IMG/VR virus record: IMGVR_UViG_3300020478_000004
Location: 44,526 to 108,525 of that record
Reading direction: 5' to 3' (one strand)
DNA: 64,000 nucleotides
Source: a virus
The notes beneath the pieces are model-generated. The model was not told where the DNA came from. It saw only the letters and a program-made list of their open reading frames with translations, and did not search any database. Shown one piece after another: positions 944 through 44,940 of the stretch. Position numbers and translations under genes: made by a program. Position 1 is the stretch's first letter, and the number at the start of each line of letters is the position of its first letter.

Positions 944-3900
944 ATGGCTAATTTAGTATCACCAGGCGTACAGGTTCAAGTTATAGACGAAAGTTTCTAT
1001 ACACCAGCTGAACCGGGTACAGTACCTATGTTATTCTTTGTATCCGCACAAGATAAGAAAAACGGTGCAGGAACAGGAACAGCTACAGGTACAACTAAAA
1101 AACAAGCAGGAACACCATTCTTGCTAACATCACAAAGAGAATTAACAGAAACGTTTGGAGATCCAACGTTTTATACAGACACTAATAACAATCCAATCAA
1201 TGGAAGTGAGCTTAACGAATACGGTTTACAAGCGGCTTATTCTTACTTAGGTGTAAGCAATAGAGCATTTGTAACAAGAGCAGATATTAATACATCTGAA
1301 CTAATTGCTTCAGCAACAGAGCCTGCGGCAAATCCAGCAGATGGCACACATTGGTTTGATACAAAAAATACATTATGGGGCATTTTTGAGTGGAATTCAA
1401 ATGCGGCGACTGTTACTGGTGGACAGACGTTTACTAATAAAATTCCAACTGTAATTACAGATAGTACAAAAGTAACAGGTGGAGTACCTAAGACATCCGT
1501 TGGCGCTGTAGGTGACTATGCCGTTGTTGCTACTACTACACTAAACAAAGTATATTACAAAAATTCAGCAGGAACATGGGTACAAGTTGGTTCAGCAGAT
1601 TGGATTAAAGCTAATGCAACAGTAATTGGAACAGAAAGTAATCCAACTATTACTAACGCGGCTAGTATGAGCGTTAATGGTACAGTAGTTACATCAGGTG
1701 GAACAGCTTTAGCAGATGTAGTAATTGCACTTAACGCCGCAGGTATTGCCGGTGTAACTTCAGAAGTTGTTGATGGTAAATTTGAAATTTACTCAACAGG
1801 CGTTGATGTTGTATTAGCAACTAACAGTTCAACATTACTTGCAGAAATTGGTTTAACAGCGGCAACACATAAAGCGCCAGCGTTACAAATTTCAGCACAT
1901 ACTGATGTACCAACATTTAAATCTACTGATACAGCACCAAGACCAACAGGGTCGGTTTGGATTAAAACTACACAACCTAACTTAGGTGCTCGCTTTAGAG
2001 TTAAAAAGTTTAATGGAACTACAAATCTTTGGGAAGATGTTGTAGCACCAATGTACACAGATGGACACACGGCATTGTTTAATTTAGATAAAGCAGGCGG
2101 TGGTGTAAATCTTGCAGTTGGTACTTTATACGTTAATTATAATAACGCTGAAGAATCATCAACTGTAGCAGATTTTAAAATTCACAGACGTACTAATACT
2201 GGAAACACAAGTATTAAGAGTTCAATAATTGCGGCACAGCTTACAGCAAACACTTATGCATTTAATATTCAAGAGTCAATTGTTGGTCAAGCGGCTCTTA
2301 GTGCAGACAAAACAGTTAGTGTAACTACAACAGCGGCATCAAGCGATGCTGATGTTATTGCAGGCGCAATTAACGCCGCAGGGTTTACTAACGTTGTTGC
2401 TTCAGTAGACGCTTCAAACAGAATCGTTATTGAACACAATGATGGTGGTGAGTTCCGTATTAAAGATACAGGTGGCGTACTTAACTTGGCAGGATTTAGT
2501 GCTTTTGTAAATGCTAACTCCGGTACACCTAATTTATATACAGCACCAACAGGTGACACAACACACGACTTTGTTGCAAGTAACTGGCAAGTATTAACAT
2601 ATACTGCTTCAGCTACGGCTCCAACTGCTTTAACAACAGATGGTAGACTATGGTATAGTTCAATTGTTGATGAAGTTGATATTATGATACACAATGGTAC
2701 TACTTGGGTAGGATATTTAGATTCAACTAGTCCGTATTTTGCGGCGGCTGATTCAGATAAAACTGACCCAGCTGGACCAATTGTTTCAGCAACAGAGCCA
2801 ACTTTGCAATCAGATGGAACTGCACTTAAAAACGGTGACATTTGGATTTCAACAGCTGATACTGAAAACTATCCAAAAATTTACAAATACAATGGCACAA
2901 CTCTAAAATTTGTACTTGTTGATAACAGCGACCAAACAACTGAAGATGGAGTTGTTTTTGCAGATGCACGTTATAATACAGCAGGTGCAAATTCAGATAA
3001 AGCAGGAACTATTGCTTCATTACTAGTAAGCAACTTTGTTGATATTGATGCTCCAGATCCAGCACTTTATCCAAAAGGAATGTTACTTTACAATCTACGT
3101 AGAAGCGGATTTAATGTTAAGAAATTTGTTCGTAATCACGTAAACACAGCAACAGATAACATTCGATTTGGCGACGAGTCGCAATCAGGTTACTATGCAC
3201 ACCGTTGGGTTACTGAATCAGCTAACCAAACAAACGGTGCAGGTAGCTTTGGACGTAAAGCACAACGCAAAGTTATTGTTCAGGCATTACAAGCTCTAGT
3301 AAATAGTAATCAAAAAATTAGAGATGATGAATCAAGAATCTTTAATTTAATGGCTTGTCCTGGTTATCCAGAACTAATTGGTGAAATGGTTACATTAAAC
3401 ACTGATAGAGGTTTAAGTGCATTTATTATTGGTGACAGTCCATTTAGACTAACACCAGATGCAACTACACTTAATAACTGGGGTAAGAATACTGCTTTAG
3501 CAGTTGAAGATAACGACGATGGACTTGTTACAAGTGACGAATACTTAGGTGTGTTTTATCCAAGTTTATTCACAAGTGATAACGCAGGTAACAATGTAGT
3601 TGTTCCAGCAAGTCACGGTATACTTAGAACATTTGCATTGAGTGATCAAGTTTCGTTTCCATGGTTTGCACCAGCAGGTACAAGACGTGGTGGTATTACA
3701 AACGCTACAGCGGCAGGTTACATTGACAGCGAAGGCGAATTTGTAAGTACTGCACTTAACGAAGGTCAACGTGATACATTATACAGCAATAACGTAAATC
3801 CAATTACGTTCTTAACAGGCGCAGGCCTTTTAAACTTTGGTCAAAAAACAAGAGCCAAAAATGCTTCAGCGTTAGATAGAATTAACGTAGCACGTTTGGT

Positions 3901-4192
3901 AGTTTACTTACGTGGCCAACTTAAAAAACTTGCTAAACCTTATATCTTTGAACCAAATGATAAAATTACGCGAGATGAGATTAAGGCACAAGCAGATACA
4001 TTGTTACTTGAACTAGTTGGGCAAAGAGCACTTTATGACTTCTTAGTAGTGTGTGATGAATCAAACAACACACCATCAAGAATTGATCGTAATGAGCTTT
4101 ATTTAGATATTGCCATAGAACCAGTGAAAGCAGTAGAGTTTATTTACATTCCACTAAGGCTTAAAAATACTGGTGAGATAGCGGGACTGTAG
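944..4192 (+). CDS. gp18: Contractile tail sheath protein (gp18-like), extra long
   Basis: The N terminus (LVSPGVQVQVIDES) and the C-terminal third (FFADARYNTAG to the RIDRNE region) have the look of T4-type sheath subunits, which surround the tail tube and contract on infection. At 1082 residues it is far longer than T4 gp18 (659). The extra length lies in the middle and contains repeated modules of about 35-40 residues with a P..DG..W....yk.NGTTW pattern near residues 123-152, 180-220, 330-365, 555-590 and 610-655, plus two INAAG...V modules. GGGAG at 931 sets the start. The tube gene follows. Confidence 0.9.
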   Translation: MANLVSPGVQVQVIDESFYTPAEPGTVPMLFFVSAQDKKNGAGTGTATGTTKKQAGTPFLLTSQRELTETFGDPTFYTDTNNNPINGSELNEYGLQAAYSYLGVSNRAFVTRADINTSELIASATEPAANPADGTHWFDTKNTLWGIFEWNSNAATVTGGQTFTNKIPTVITDSTKVTGGVPKTSVGAVGDYAVVATTTLNKVYYKNSAGTWVQVGSADWIKANATVIGTESNPTITNAASMSVNGTVVTSGGTALADVVIALNAAGIAGVTSEVVDGKFEIYSTGVDVVLATNSSTLLAEIGLTAATHKAPALQISAHTDVPTFKSTDTAPRPTGSVWIKTTQPNLGARFRVKKFNGTTNLWEDVVAPMYTDGHTALFNLDKAGGGVNLAVGTLYVNYNNAEESSTVADFKIHRRTNTGNTSIKSSIIAAQLTANTYAFNIQESIVGQAALSADKTVSVTTTAASSDADVIAGAINAAGFTNVVASVDASNRIVIEHNDGGEFRIKDTGGVLNLAGFSAFVNANSGTPNLYTAPTGDTTHDFVASNWQVLTYTASATAPTALTTDGRLWYSSIVDEVDIMIHNGTTWVGYLDSTSPYFAAADSDKTDPAGPIVSATEPTLQSDGTALKNGDIWISTADTENYPKIYKYNGTTLKFVLVDNSDQTTEDGVVFADARYNTAGANSDKAGTIASLLVSNFVDIDAPDPALYPKGMLLYNLRRSGFNVKKFVRNHVNTATDNIRFGDESQSGYYAHRWVTESANQTNGAGSFGRKAQRKVIVQALQALVNSNQKIRDDESRIFNLMACPGYPELIGEMVTLNTDRGLSAFIIGDSPFRLTPDATTLNNWGKNTALAVEDNDDGLVTSDEYLGVFYPSLFTSDNAGNNVVVPASHGILRTFALSDQVSFPWFAPAGTRRGGITNATAAGYIDSEGEFVSTALNEGQRDTLYSNNVNPITFLTGAGLLNFGQKTRAKNASALDRINVARLVVYLRGQLKKLAKPYIFEPNDKITRDEIKAQADTLLLELVGQRALYDFLVVCDESNNTPSRIDRNELYLDIAIEPVKAVEFIYIPLRLKNTGEIAGL

Positions 4193-4197
4193 AATGA

Positions 4198-4203
4198 TAA
4201 ATA
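4198..4203 (+). promoter_or_regulatory. Late promoter GATAAATAC for tail tube
   Basis: TAAATA core just after the sheath stop codon; a GGGAG ribosome site and the tube ATG (4226) follow. Confidence 0.65.
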
Positions 4204-4225
4204 CAGCTAATAGGGAGATATTATA

Positions 4226-4858
4226 ATGAGTATATCAACATTATCAAAACTTACAGTACCTTTAGATTCAAGTGCATCAGCCTCGAATCAAGGGCTGTTA
4301 ATGCCAAAACTCCAGTATCGCTTTAGGGTGACATTGGAAAATTTTGGTAGATCAACACCAACAACTGAATTAACAAAACAAGTTGTTGATGTTACAAGGC
4401 CTAACGTGTCCTTTGAACAAATTACACTTGACGTATACAACTCACGTGTGTTCTTAGCAGGAAAACATACTTGGGAACCAATCACACTTAACTTACGTGA
4501 GGATGTTTCTAATAACGTACAAAAATTAGTTGGTGAGCAACTACAAAAACAATTTGATTTCTTTGAACAATCATCAGCGGCATCAGGTAGCGATTACAAA
4601 TTCGTAACTAGAATTGAAATTTTAGACGGTGGTAATGGTACAAATGCGGCGGCGATTCTTGAAACATTTGAACTTTATGGTTGTTACTGTGAAAGTGCAA
4701 ACTACAATACATTAGCATATAGTACAAACGATCCAGTAACTATTGCATTATCTATTAGATACGATAACGCAATACAAACACCACAAGGTACAGGTATTGG
4801 TACAGCTATTGGTAGAACAGTTAATACTGCGGCTACTGGTGGTGGATCAGCAACTTAA
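4226..4858 (+). CDS. gp19: Tail tube protein (gp19-like)
   Basis: 210 residues, directly after the sheath gene as in T4 (18-19). The sequence has the tube-fold pattern: an N-terminal YRFRVTLENFG strand, a VTRPNVSFEQITLDVYNS segment and WEPITLNLRED, as in gp19/gp54-fold proteins that stack into the inner tail tube. The C-terminal tail is rich in Gly, Thr and Ala. It has its own late promoter and RBS and is followed by a strong intrinsic terminator, consistent with very high late expression. Confidence 0.88.
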   Translation: MSISTLSKLTVPLDSSASASNQGLLMPKLQYRFRVTLENFGRSTPTTELTKQVVDVTRPNVSFEQITLDVYNSRVFLAGKHTWEPITLNLREDVSNNVQKLVGEQLQKQFDFFEQSSAASGSDYKFVTRIEILDGGNGTNAAAILETFELYGCYCESANYNTLAYSTNDPVTIALSIRYDNAIQTPQGTGIGTAIGRTVNTAATGGGSAT

Positions 4859-4886
4859 TAAAAATAAATTATAATATTTCCGAGTC

Positions 4887-4920
4887 AAAGGGGGTCTTTT
4901 TAGGCCCCTTTTTTCTTTTT
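4887..4920 (+). terminator. Intrinsic terminator after tail tube
   Basis: AAAGGGG pairs with CCCCTTT around a short loop, followed by a T-rich tract. Confidence 0.85.
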
Positions 4921-4983: not shown

Positions 4984-6393
4984 ATGGCTAGCAAATTTCA
5001 AGGATTTTTTGATAACATAATAGCAGGGACTTTAAATCCCAAGGGTAACCTTGGTGACTGGCAACACGCTAGAGCATTATATACTAATGACGATTTTCGT
5101 CTCGCTCCTAAACATAAGTTTTTATATCATGTGGCTTTTACATTAAACGAAAGAGCGGCAAAAGTAATTCCACAATTAAAAACAGAAGAACTTAATATGT
5201 TAGTTAAGTCAGTCGACTTACCTAAGTATAATATAAGCACTACTCTAAAGCACCAATACAATAAAAAACGTAATTTACAAACAAGATTAGATTATGATCC
5301 TGTTAACATTACCTTCCATGATGATAACTGGGGTATAACAACTGCTATGTGGGAAGCATACTATAGATACTACTTTAGAGACGGAACATATTCAGCATTG
5401 TCAGGCGCCGCTCCTGCTTCGTCTTCTAATGCTGGAAAAGATAACAGTGGATTACCACAAGGCGCTTATAACAGAGCTAATACATACTTAGACAGTTCAG
5501 TAAACAGATATCGTTTTGGTATGGACAACGATCAATTTGAAAACTTTTTTGATACAATTCAAATTTTTCAAATGTCAAGACGAAGGTATACTTGTTTTAC
5601 TTTAGTTAATCCTATAATTTCAAGTTGGCAACACGATACTATGGATAATAGCGATAGTGGTGTTGTAGCAAATCAAATGACAGTTCAATATGAAACTGTA
5701 TGGTATGCACGTGGACCAGTTAAAGAAGGTACTGCTCCTAAAATGTTTGGTACTCCATCAGGACACTATGATTCAACTCCGAGTCCAATAACCTTAGAAG
5801 GTGGCGGAGTAGCAAGTTTATTTGGTATTGGTGGTGTAGCTTCAGGTGGTTTAGATGTGCTTGGTGATATTACAAGTGGAAAAGCAACTGGAAGTTTAGG
5901 AGGTTTTCTTGGAACAGTATTAAAAGGTGCTAACGTATTTAAAAATGCAAAAAGTTTATCACGTAGTGGAATACGTCAAGAAGGATTTAATATTTTAAAA
6001 GGAGCTTTGGGTCAAGTAAATAATTCAGCTGTAGGCGGAGTTGCTAATACTTTCTTTCCGAAAGGAAGTGGTACAGGAAGTAGTAGTGCAAGTCTTATCA
6101 ATACAGTTGCAGGTCTCACAGCAGGGGCATCAATTATAAAAACTGTTTCTTCTGGAAGTACATTAGATGCTGTTACCTCGTTAGTTAATAATCCAGGTAA
6201 ACTAGACCAACTAGCCCTAGCAGGAAGTTTCTTAAAAACACATCTTGAAACAGGTGGAAGTGCAGTTATTGATGAAGTCGGAACAGCTTATGCTAATTTA
6301 TCCGAGTCCGCTAAAAATTCATTTAGACAATTAGAATTAGATAATGTACAACAAACATTACAAAATAATTCTAACTTAACATTGGAGGCCTAG
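4984..6393 (+). CDS. Tail tube-fold baseplate/tube-junction protein (gp54/gp48-like), tentative
   Basis: 469 residues. The N-terminal half has the tube-fold signature LVKSVDLPKYNIST...YNKKRNLQTRLDYDPVNITFHDDN, resembling gp19/gp54-type proteins that join baseplate to tube. The C-terminal half (from about residue 260) is Gly/Ser/Ala-rich and low complexity. It lies between the tube gene and head-completion genes. The exact T4 counterpart cannot be fixed by eye: gp54, gp48 or a marine-specific tube-like protein are all possible. A late promoter lies five bases before ATG. Confidence 0.6.
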   Translation: MASKFQGFFDNIIAGTLNPKGNLGDWQHARALYTNDDFRLAPKHKFLYHVAFTLNERAAKVIPQLKTEELNMLVKSVDLPKYNISTTLKHQYNKKRNLQTRLDYDPVNITFHDDNWGITTAMWEAYYRYYFRDGTYSALSGAAPASSSNAGKDNSGLPQGAYNRANTYLDSSVNRYRFGMDNDQFENFFDTIQIFQMSRRRYTCFTLVNPIISSWQHDTMDNSDSGVVANQMTVQYETVWYARGPVKEGTAPKMFGTPSGHYDSTPSPITLEGGGVASLFGIGGVASGGLDVLGDITSGKATGSLGGFLGTVLKGANVFKNAKSLSRSGIRQEGFNILKGALGQVNNSAVGGVANTFFPKGSGTGSSSASLINTVAGLTAGASIIKTVSSGSTLDAVTSLVNNPGKLDQLALAGSFLKTHLETGGSAVIDEVGTAYANLSESAKNSFRQLELDNVQQTLQNNSNLTLEA

Positions 6394-43566: not shown

Positions 43567-43647
43567 GAAAGACGAACACGACACTATTCGGACATGGCCG
43601 CAAAATCATGTTCAAACCATTAAGACACCGCTTTTTATATCATTTGA

Positions 43648-43653
43648 TAAATA
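43648..43653 (+). promoter_or_regulatory. Late promoter GATAAATACT for the synthetase-tRNA unit
   Basis: TAAATA core ten bases before ATG 43664. It would transcribe 43664, the synthetase-like gene and the tRNA together. Confidence 0.6.
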
Positions 43654-43663
43654 CTACTTTAGT

Positions 43664-43936
43664 ATGCCGAGAGAACTCTTAAATACTAAAAACCACAAAA
43701 CACCAACACATACCATCTCCAATACACAATATCAAGACGTAGAATTAGTCAAACTTATGACTGAAGCATTAACGAATAAGAACAAGTATACTGTTCGTGT
43801 AGAAGGTTGGAATATAGAGTACAAACGGCATTGGACCTCTAGCATTAACAGTATCACTAATTGGGACAATTTAAACTTTAATTACAACCAAAAAGCTGAT
43901 ACATTTGTCTTTCAACATAGGAGCAACGGACAATGA
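43664..43936 (+). CDS. Small protein (90 aa), unknown
   Basis: Asn-, Thr- and Lys-rich (MPRELLNTKNHKTPTH). YTVRVEGWNIEYKRHWTS looks like two strands. Its stop overlaps the synthetase-like ATG (ATGA) and an AGGAG for that gene lies in its 3' end, so it is coupled to it. Confidence 0.5.
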   Translation: MPRELLNTKNHKTPTHTISNTQYQDVELVKLMTEALTNKNKYTVRVEGWNIEYKRHWTSSINSITNWDNLNFNYNQKADTFVFQHRSNGQ

Positions 43937-44847
43937 CCCAACTAATTAACCCACAAGCCTTTACCGAAACTGTCGGCCGTTTACGGTCGTTTTTTTTGGA
44001 CAAGGGATTTTACGAAGTACACACTCAAAACAGATTAAGCATACTAGCCGCTTGTGAAGACCCGTTTAACGTAGCAACATACAATTACGCAGACCAAGTA
44101 TGGCCTTTACCCCAAACAGGCCAGATGTGGCTTGAACACGAATTATTAAGTAGCCCCTCTTCGAAGGGGTTTTTTTGTGTCTCCACATCCTATAGGCAGG
44201 AACCAAATGCAATACCAGGAAGACATGATATCATCTTTCCAATGTTTGAATTTGAGATGCCTGGTGATATAGATGACCTTAAGAAGATGGAGTATGAATT
44301 ATGTGAACACTTGGGCTTTAAAAAGCCTACTGAAAAAACTTATGCTGAATGGCAAAAGCATTACGGTCATGCTGAAGACTATGAAATGACTGCGGAAGAA
44401 GAAACCAAGATGCACCAAGAGTTTGGTACAACCATGATAACAGACTTTCCTGAAATGACATCACCTTTTTGGAACATGAGTAGAAATGATGATGGCAAAA
44501 CTGCAAAGAAGATAGATGTTATACTAGGTGGTATGGAAACAATAGGAAGTGCGGAACGTTCATGCGATGTAGAAATGATGCGTGATACATTCCATAGCAT
44601 TACAGACGGAGAGTACAGTAAGCTACTTTATAAACTGTTCAGTCAGGAACGTGTTGAAGCAGAGCTAGAAAAGTTTCTAGAGTTTGACTTCTTTCCGAGA
44701 GTTGGTGGCGGAATAGGATTAACTCGTTTGTTAAGAGCAGTTGAAGATTATAAAAGTAAAAAAGTAAAAACTGATGATGACCGTGAAATTTTATATAATA
44801 AACGCCGAGAGATGAATAGGCAAAGCGTACACGGAATACTTCAATAA
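43933..44847 (+). CDS. Class II aminoacyl-tRNA synthetase-like protein (AsnRS/AspRS type catalytic core only)
   Basis: 304 residues. Motif 1 is near residues 14-30 (GRLRSFFLDKGFYEVHTQ), QTGQMWLEHELL matches the SPQ-type segment, motif 2 is SYRQEPNAIPGRHDIIFPMFEFE (86-108) and motif 3 GGGIGLTRLLRAVE (258-271). ILGGMETIGSAERS matches the Asx-type active-site strand. The N-terminal OB-fold that reads the anticodon in AsnRS/AspRS is absent, as in synthetase paralogues such as AsnA-type asparagine synthetase and EpmA. A tRNA with Asn anticodon starts six bases downstream. Two terminator-like hairpins lie inside the gene. Confidence 0.8.
   Translation: MTQLINPQAFTETVGRLRSFFLDKGFYEVHTQNRLSILAACEDPFNVATYNYADQVWPLPQTGQMWLEHELLSSPSSKGFFCVSTSYRQEPNAIPGRHDIIFPMFEFEMPGDIDDLKKMEYELCEHLGFKKPTEKTYAEWQKHYGHAEDYEMTAEEETKMHQEFGTTMITDFPEMTSPFWNMSRNDDGKTAKKIDVILGGMETIGSAERSCDVEMMRDTFHSITDGEYSKLLYKLFSQERVEAELEKFLEFDFFPRVGGGIGLTRLLRAVEDYKSKKVKTDDDREILYNKRREMNRQSVHGILQ
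43974..43997 (+). terminator. Terminator-like hairpin inside synthetase gene (1)
   Basis: CGGCCG-TTTA-CGGTCG followed by eight T. The coding frame continues through it and keeps motif 1, so it is not an intergenic terminator. Confidence 0.55.
44154..44176 (+). terminator. Terminator-like hairpin inside synthetase gene (2)
   Basis: CCCCT-CTTCGA-AGGGG followed by seven T, at codons for SPSSKGFF. In frame with the rest of the protein. Confidence 0.5.
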
Positions 44848-44853
44848 GGCTTT

Positions 44854-44940
44854 TCCGGGGTGGTGGAAACGGTAGACACGATAGCCTGTTTAGCTATTGC
44901 TTGGGAGAGCGTGAAGGTTCGAATCCTTCCCCCGGAGCCA
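44854..44940 (+). tRNA. tRNA with GUU (Asn) anticodon and long variable arm, CCA encoded
   Basis: Acceptor stem TCCGGGG (44854-44860) pairs with CCCCGGA (44930-44936); discriminator G and CCA follow. D stem GTG/CAC with the Leu-type loop, anticodon stem ATAGC/GCTAT with loop CTGTTTA (anticodon GTT, 44888-44890), a 15-base variable arm with GCT/AGC stem, T stem GAAGG/CCTTC. Aligned base for base with a class II tRNA-Leu the fit is complete. G73, U1-A72 and the GUU anticodon are Asn-like. Decodes AAC/AAU if functional; U37 is unusual. Confidence 0.85.

Follow-up and report, generated by a model that had tools for sequence, protein, structure and literature searches.

Covarying terminator-like hairpins at two fixed positions of a synthetase-like gene in phages and bacteria suggest tandem attenuation within a coding sequence

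Introduction

The pausing of RNA polymerase depends on UTP in the pyrBI and pyrE systems of E. coli. A ribosome that closely follows the polymerase prevents formation of the terminator hairpin in both systems (PMC5021804, PMC4824070; Bonekamp et al. 1984, cited in PMC6941894). The same protection from intrinsic termination operates in or near translated frames more widely, pyrL included (PMC5021804, PMC4824070). The first E. coli ribosome catches the polymerase within about 100-200 nt, and terminators placed in the first 100 nt are largely active unless pausing couples both machines (PMC4824070).

Intragenic terminators are usually written off as noise, and a 2010 survey of cyanophages required terminators to be intergenic (PMC3037559), so that elements of the kind reported here are invisible to annotation of that type. 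In the present study we describe a protein family that keeps two such elements in its gene by means of matched silent changes, and control by the following ribosome therefore becomes directly testable in phages. The window, a stretch of 64,000 nucleotides (positions 44,526 to 108,525 of the IMG/VR virus record IMGVR_UViG_3300020478_000004), contains a gene of this family, for which a preliminary description had pointed out two hairpins. Our search of the literature found no account of the function of the gene family or of its hairpins.

Materials and Methods

Terminators were scored with a re-implementation of the published form of the d'Aubenton-Carafa-type score, d>0 being considered terminator-grade; the score takes ungapped stems only, and bulged hairpins are missed. 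The close set was formed by 80 close viral homologues (68 distinct ones, counting the window) and the wide set by 171 distinct viral homologues with 45-100% identity. Viral loci, designated by L numbers like the bacterial ones, were sampled by sequence-based retrieval with an upper limit of 80-120 loci per search, and the frequencies given below describe these samples rather than phages at large. The bacterial set comprised 62 distinct homologues from a genome collection, with MAG contigs included; the contigs L087-L093 of that collection are probably viral and were tallied as viral. Shuffles and slid positions served as controls for covariation. As pair counts ignore relatedness, we additionally counted switches between paired states on a phylogeny from FastTree that left out the hairpin residues.

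Results

Both hairpins lie, with the sequence and coordinates reported earlier, within the open frame of the synthetase-like gene (Table 1). H1 (CGGCCG-TTTA-CGGTCG followed by T8) has a stem of 6 bp and the loop TTTA, and H2 (AGCCCCT-CTTCGA-AGGGGTT with a T7 tract) a stem of 7 bp and the loop CTTCGA. They show the geometry of intrinsic terminators, namely a GC-rich stem, a short loop and a U tract directly 3' on the transcribed strand, and score d = 22.1 and d = 18.0, respectively, when the U tract is considered. Only four sites with d>0 occur on both strands of the window, two of them being H1 and H2, against a mean of 0.2 in 10 dinucleotide shuffles of the same 64 kb. In single-sequence folding the gain over dinucleotide shuffles is modest (z of -1.4 for H1 and -2.1 for H2). 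A search of the window against Rfam returned the tRNA as the sole match.

Table 1. Position of the two hairpins, their carrier gene and neighbouring features in the window.
Feature	Position	Strand	Remarks
T4-type late promoter likeness, GATAAATA	43646..43653	+	candidate transcript start
90-aa ORF without assigned function	43664..43936	+	stop overlaps synthetase start (ATGA)
AsnRS-like class II synthetase gene, intact, 304 aa	43933..44847	+	carries both hairpins
H1 terminator-like stem-loop	43974..43989	+	codons 14-19, 42-57 nt past start-codon A
H1 U tract, T8	43990..43997	+	codons F20 F21 L22
H2 terminator-like stem-loop	44152..44171	+	codons 74-80, about 220-239 nt past start codon
H2 U tract, T7	44170..44176	+	codons F80 F81, first base of C82
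tRNA, Asn anticodon GTT, long variable arm	44854..44940	+	6 nt past synthetase stop

The encoded protein belongs to the Asp/Lys/Asn group of class II synthetases (Pfam PF00152), of which it comprises the catalytic core only. It reaches 31 bits with the asnS equivalog model, whose cut-off is 342.6, lacks the anticodon-binding domain and scores far under the curated cut-offs of true AsnRS or AspRS. An AlphaFold2 model of the protein (mean pLDDT 86.7) best matches the cores of AsnRS and AspRS, and also matches the archaeal asparagine synthetase A 3rex. The gene is labelled 'tRNA ligase' (T4-GC 194) in the Prochlorococcus phages P-SSM2, P-SSM5 and P-SSM7, and the plasmid collection gave no relative. 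Neither of the two short ORFs found upstream in the window has a PHROG match; the overlap of one of them with the synthetase start is consistent with possible translational coupling. Transcription may start at the promoter-like element of Table 1: the motif ATAAATA is found within 160 nt upstream of the gene in 75 of 148 viral copies, compared with 4.4% of random windows. Another hairpin with AAATTTTTTTT, which we name H0, occurs in the 5' leader of 45 of the 148 viral copies and, in many close relatives, lies between a late-type promoter and the start codon (for example L010, just upstream of the gene at 3848); it is not present in the window.

At most viral loci a GTT (Asn) tRNA with a long variable arm and a Leu/Ser-like body follows a few nucleotides 3' of the gene, as in L082 (6813-6900), L083 (6805-6891) and the window. 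Of 145 viral copies, at least 84 fit a strict pattern for it and others show odd versions of 100 nt, while in L090 (around 4856-4890) only both ends of the acceptor stem are left, GGGGTCCCCCGGAGCC, giving the impression that the tRNA was excised. Gene and tRNA look like a dedicated synthetase-tRNA pair, and in the window they probably share a transcript.

The preliminary description proposed as a check that homologues be compared at synonymous sites. The comparison was carried out, and compensatory, largely silent changes keep both hairpins; free variation was not observed among the 171 distinct viral homologues. The most constrained parts of the gene in the close set are two stretches, around codons 12-22 and around codons 70-82, in which codon choice is frozen; F20 F21 of the H1 U tract are encoded by TTT TTT in 68 of 68 distinct homologues. 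Codons that are scarce elsewhere in the gene (AGG 2.5%, CCC 7%, GGG 1%) are placed exactly at the hairpins. Throughout the wide set, H1 reaches d>0 in 153 of 171 homologues and H2 in 132, with at least one hairpin in 163 and both in 122; not one of the 171 genes has a further site with d>0. In 771 further ORFs (690 kb) from these loci, such sites number 8 altogether. Coding for the conserved FF and P..GFF residues might in principle create such structures as a by-product, given that the motifs P75...G79-F80-F81 and L-R-S-F-F favour CC/GG stems before T runs. However, synonymous shuffles within each gene, which keep the protein, predict only about 1.5 copies with H1 and about 11 with H2, and this explanation, which does not account for double-synonymous covariation either, has a practically negligible probability. 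The same shuffles rule out a chance origin of the pair.

The covariation can be followed clade by clade. The H1 stem reads CGGCCG/CGGTCG in the window, TGGCCT/AGGTCA in another clade, TGACCT/AGGTCA in P-SSM2 and P-SSM7, and GGGCCT/AGGTCC, GGAGCG/CGCTCC or GTCACG/CGTGAC elsewhere; the H2 stem alternates among CCCC/GGGG, GCCC/GGGC, TCCTTC/GAAGGA, CCCTG/CAGGG and GCCAG/CTGGC. Pairing amounts to 95.7% at H1 (control 78.0 +/- 1.5) and 90.4% at H2 (control 76.1 +/- 1.3), with 39 double-changed cells against 12.4 and 52 against 19.9, respectively, exceeding both the shuffled and the slid-position controls. On the tree, one paired state was exchanged for another at least 16 times at V14.3-S19.3 of H1 and at least 37 times at 74.3-G79.3 of H2. 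In the 108 copies that have both Val14 and Ser19, the third bases of the two codons, which are silent, form a Watson-Crick pair 97 times. These sequence comparisons show that at two fixed codon positions selection acts on RNA pairing and on the U tract. All that persists across clades is the pairing, the strength of the stem and the U tract, while the letters of stem and loop change wholly, so that an intrinsic terminator is the simplest account of what is being selected. We also considered a sequence-specific protein site and tRNA mimicry, both disfavoured by stem and loop letters that are wholly clade-specific.

Relatives with 50-60% identity exist in Patescibacteria, Midichloriaceae, gammaproteobacteria and others. 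Among the 62 bacterial homologues, terminator-grade hairpins occupy the same two places 22 times against 0.65 expected (13 against 0.34 for H1 and 9 against 0.31 for H2), and 41 of the 62, several of them within pyr operons, have no hairpin with d>0. In five genomes of Midichloriaceae the H1 stem measures 10 bp and is followed by a long T run; in four gammaproteobacterial genomes it is H2 that has 10 bp, in the compensatory versions CCCCGG/CCGGGG and CCCCAG/CTGGGG. The gene carrying these 10-bp hairpins is the first of pyrF-pyrE-pyrD-prs or pyrE-pyrF, as confirmed with Pfam, and hairpins are present also where the bacterial gene stands alone. The tie between hairpins and pyr adjacency in bacteria is suggestive only (7 of 12 versus 14 of 50, p=0.09).

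Three hairpin-bearing bacterial loci (L108, L125 and L160) have a divergent upstream gene, and consequently the RNA carrying their hairpins must start at a promoter of the gene itself. The same loci bear on the idea that H1 and H2 terminate the upstream transcription unit and fall in the next gene by chance, as the compactness of phage genomes and the terminators found just upstream of the gene in L261 and L213 might suggest. The hairpins are nevertheless present behind divergent genes, and they travel with the gene across the unlike neighbourhoods of P-SSM2, P-SSM7 and bacteria, making this idea very improbable.

The gene adjoins pyrE, pyrF or pyrD in the bacterial loci L100, L115, L118, L121, L133, L135, L145, L156, L158, L160 and L162. 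In 20 bacterial genomes with the gene, partly incomplete MAGs, hits over the cut-off were found for PyrB in 2, for PyrC in 2 and 0 (two models) and for CarB in 3, whereas control genomes do contain the three enzymes. Pyr-like genes lie near the synthetase-like gene at 14 of 171 viral loci, the usual phage neighbour being tRNA-Asn, and the 108-kb record of the window has no PyrD-like gene. In some phages the synthetase-like gene has as neighbours short genes resembling PyrD (DHO_dh) and PyrE (phosphoribosyltransferase), related to the versions of Midichloriaceae (L015 at 3701-4411 and 5935-6327, L018, L253 at 1459-1836, L088 at 1276-1965).

In P-SSM5 (L084, around 5990-6020) the H1 tract is T7, instead of the T8 of P-SSM2, and the frame is shifted; a sequencing error, a real frameshift and a slippage-corrected gene are the alternatives. 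This difference would fit hairpin-dependent transcriptional slippage at T8 and T7 leading to frameshifted products, for which a hairpin next to a slippery run is a known requirement (PMC5009743). The shifted frames of viral copies are, however, short (median 2-6 codons for -1 and 5-27 codons for +1) and end at variable places with no conserved alternative product, so we regard slippage as quite improbable.

Discussion

A terminator kept within a gene that needs expression must be conditional or partial, and the compensatory, mostly synonymous upkeep of the hairpins leaves dependence on the ribosome as the best reading. We propose that H1 and H2 are tandem attenuators within the coding sequence, acting on the gene itself and on what follows, and we assign to this proposal a probability of about 0.55. 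We infer that transcription would terminate at H1 and H2; control of both sites by ribosome coupling is slightly favoured. A polymerase outrunning the first ribosome would allow the hairpin to form and transcription would stop, while a ribosome close behind would cover the stem and transcription would continue towards the downstream targets, which would be the tRNA in phages and pyrimidine genes in some bacteria. H1, located before the catch-up point, would tend to stop transcription unless the polymerase pauses early, and H2, beyond that point, would test whether coupling holds.

H1 may terminate constitutively, since it falls within the first 100 nt, where the ribosome has usually not yet arrived. 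This position, at which ribosomes usually give no protection, is in line with true terminators that do not switch, either stopping a fixed share of transcripts or being overridden by a late phage antiterminator. Such terminators might hold down a costly or toxic synthetase, set its ratio to the tRNA or make short 5' RNAs; the strong, conserved stems and a late-type promoter of the gene's own close upstream in half of the viral copies would fit as well. Tandem sites at fixed places, kept in bacteria with unlike neighbourhoods, suit a conditional device better, and the synonymous constraint is centred on the hairpins and not on the remainder of a putative short RNA. This reading without a switch is rather unlikely.

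The preliminary description had suggested that the hairpins could make synthesis dependent on translating ribosomes through an attenuation sensitive to tRNA supply, with short RNAs or a late antiterminator as alternatives. Of the attenuation idea, the first element agrees with the compensatory silent changes and stands as the best reading; the second, a tuning to charged tRNA-Asn, is improbable. An AsnRS-like protein, a tRNA-Asn 3' of its gene and a frame translated through the hairpins would all be expected from it, but codon usage gives it no support: Asn codons do not form a run ahead of H1, the window having a single one there and homologues such as L024 none, and no constrained alternative antiterminator region was found upstream. 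Moreover, stalling of the ribosome before the hairpins would promote termination, the wrong sign for a synthetase needed at that moment.

With ribosome-dependent attenuation at H1 and H2, UTP is the likeliest signal, because the gene heads bacterial pyrimidine operons and half of the viral leaders have T runs: 78 of 148 viral copies show a run of at least seven T, a candidate pause site if transcribed, in the 120 nt before the gene, against a background of 4.8%. By analogy, the supply of UTP would set the dwell time of the polymerase on U-rich stretches. No UTP-dependent pause site was found, and no U-rich one was seen ahead of the terminator in the window. A role of UTP is only tentative, with the odds somewhat against it, and weaker for phages, in which pyr-like genes are seldom near and the usual neighbour is a tRNA.

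The gene neighbourhoods also point to a synthetase-like enzyme tied to pyrimidine synthesis. As a speculation, the AsnRS-like enzyme may supply carbamoyl-aspartate or dihydroorotate, for example from asparagine, bicarbonate and ATP. The full picture, in which a family-wide UTP attenuator in phages and several bacterial phyla sits in an unrecognised AsnRS-like pyrimidine enzyme replacing carbamoyl-phosphate synthase, PyrB and PyrC, is doubtful.

Finally, the locus can be compared with known systems. In E. coli pyrBI (with pyrL) and rph-pyrE, as proposed here, an intrinsic terminator lies inside a translated frame or just past its end, and there it precedes pyrimidine genes. In E. coli that frame is either a short leader peptide, pyrL, or the final part of rph, whereas here it is the 5' third of a conserved enzyme gene; in addition the hairpins described here are doubled, covary synonymously and are common to phages and distant bacteria. 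E. coli narY and rsxC likewise have a predicted hairpin and U tract inside the coding region, masked by translation (PMC5021804), but they are single-gene cases, whereas here an entire protein family retains its hairpins at two shared positions. The Roseiflexus IS slippage system shares a stem-loop adjoining a slippery run, and differs in that our genes have no open alternative frame and show terminator geometry with pure T runs. The leader-peptide attenuators of the trp/his type let the position of the ribosome decide termination, as we propose for H1 and H2; in the present family neither a run of cognate codons nor a mutually exclusive antiterminator was found.
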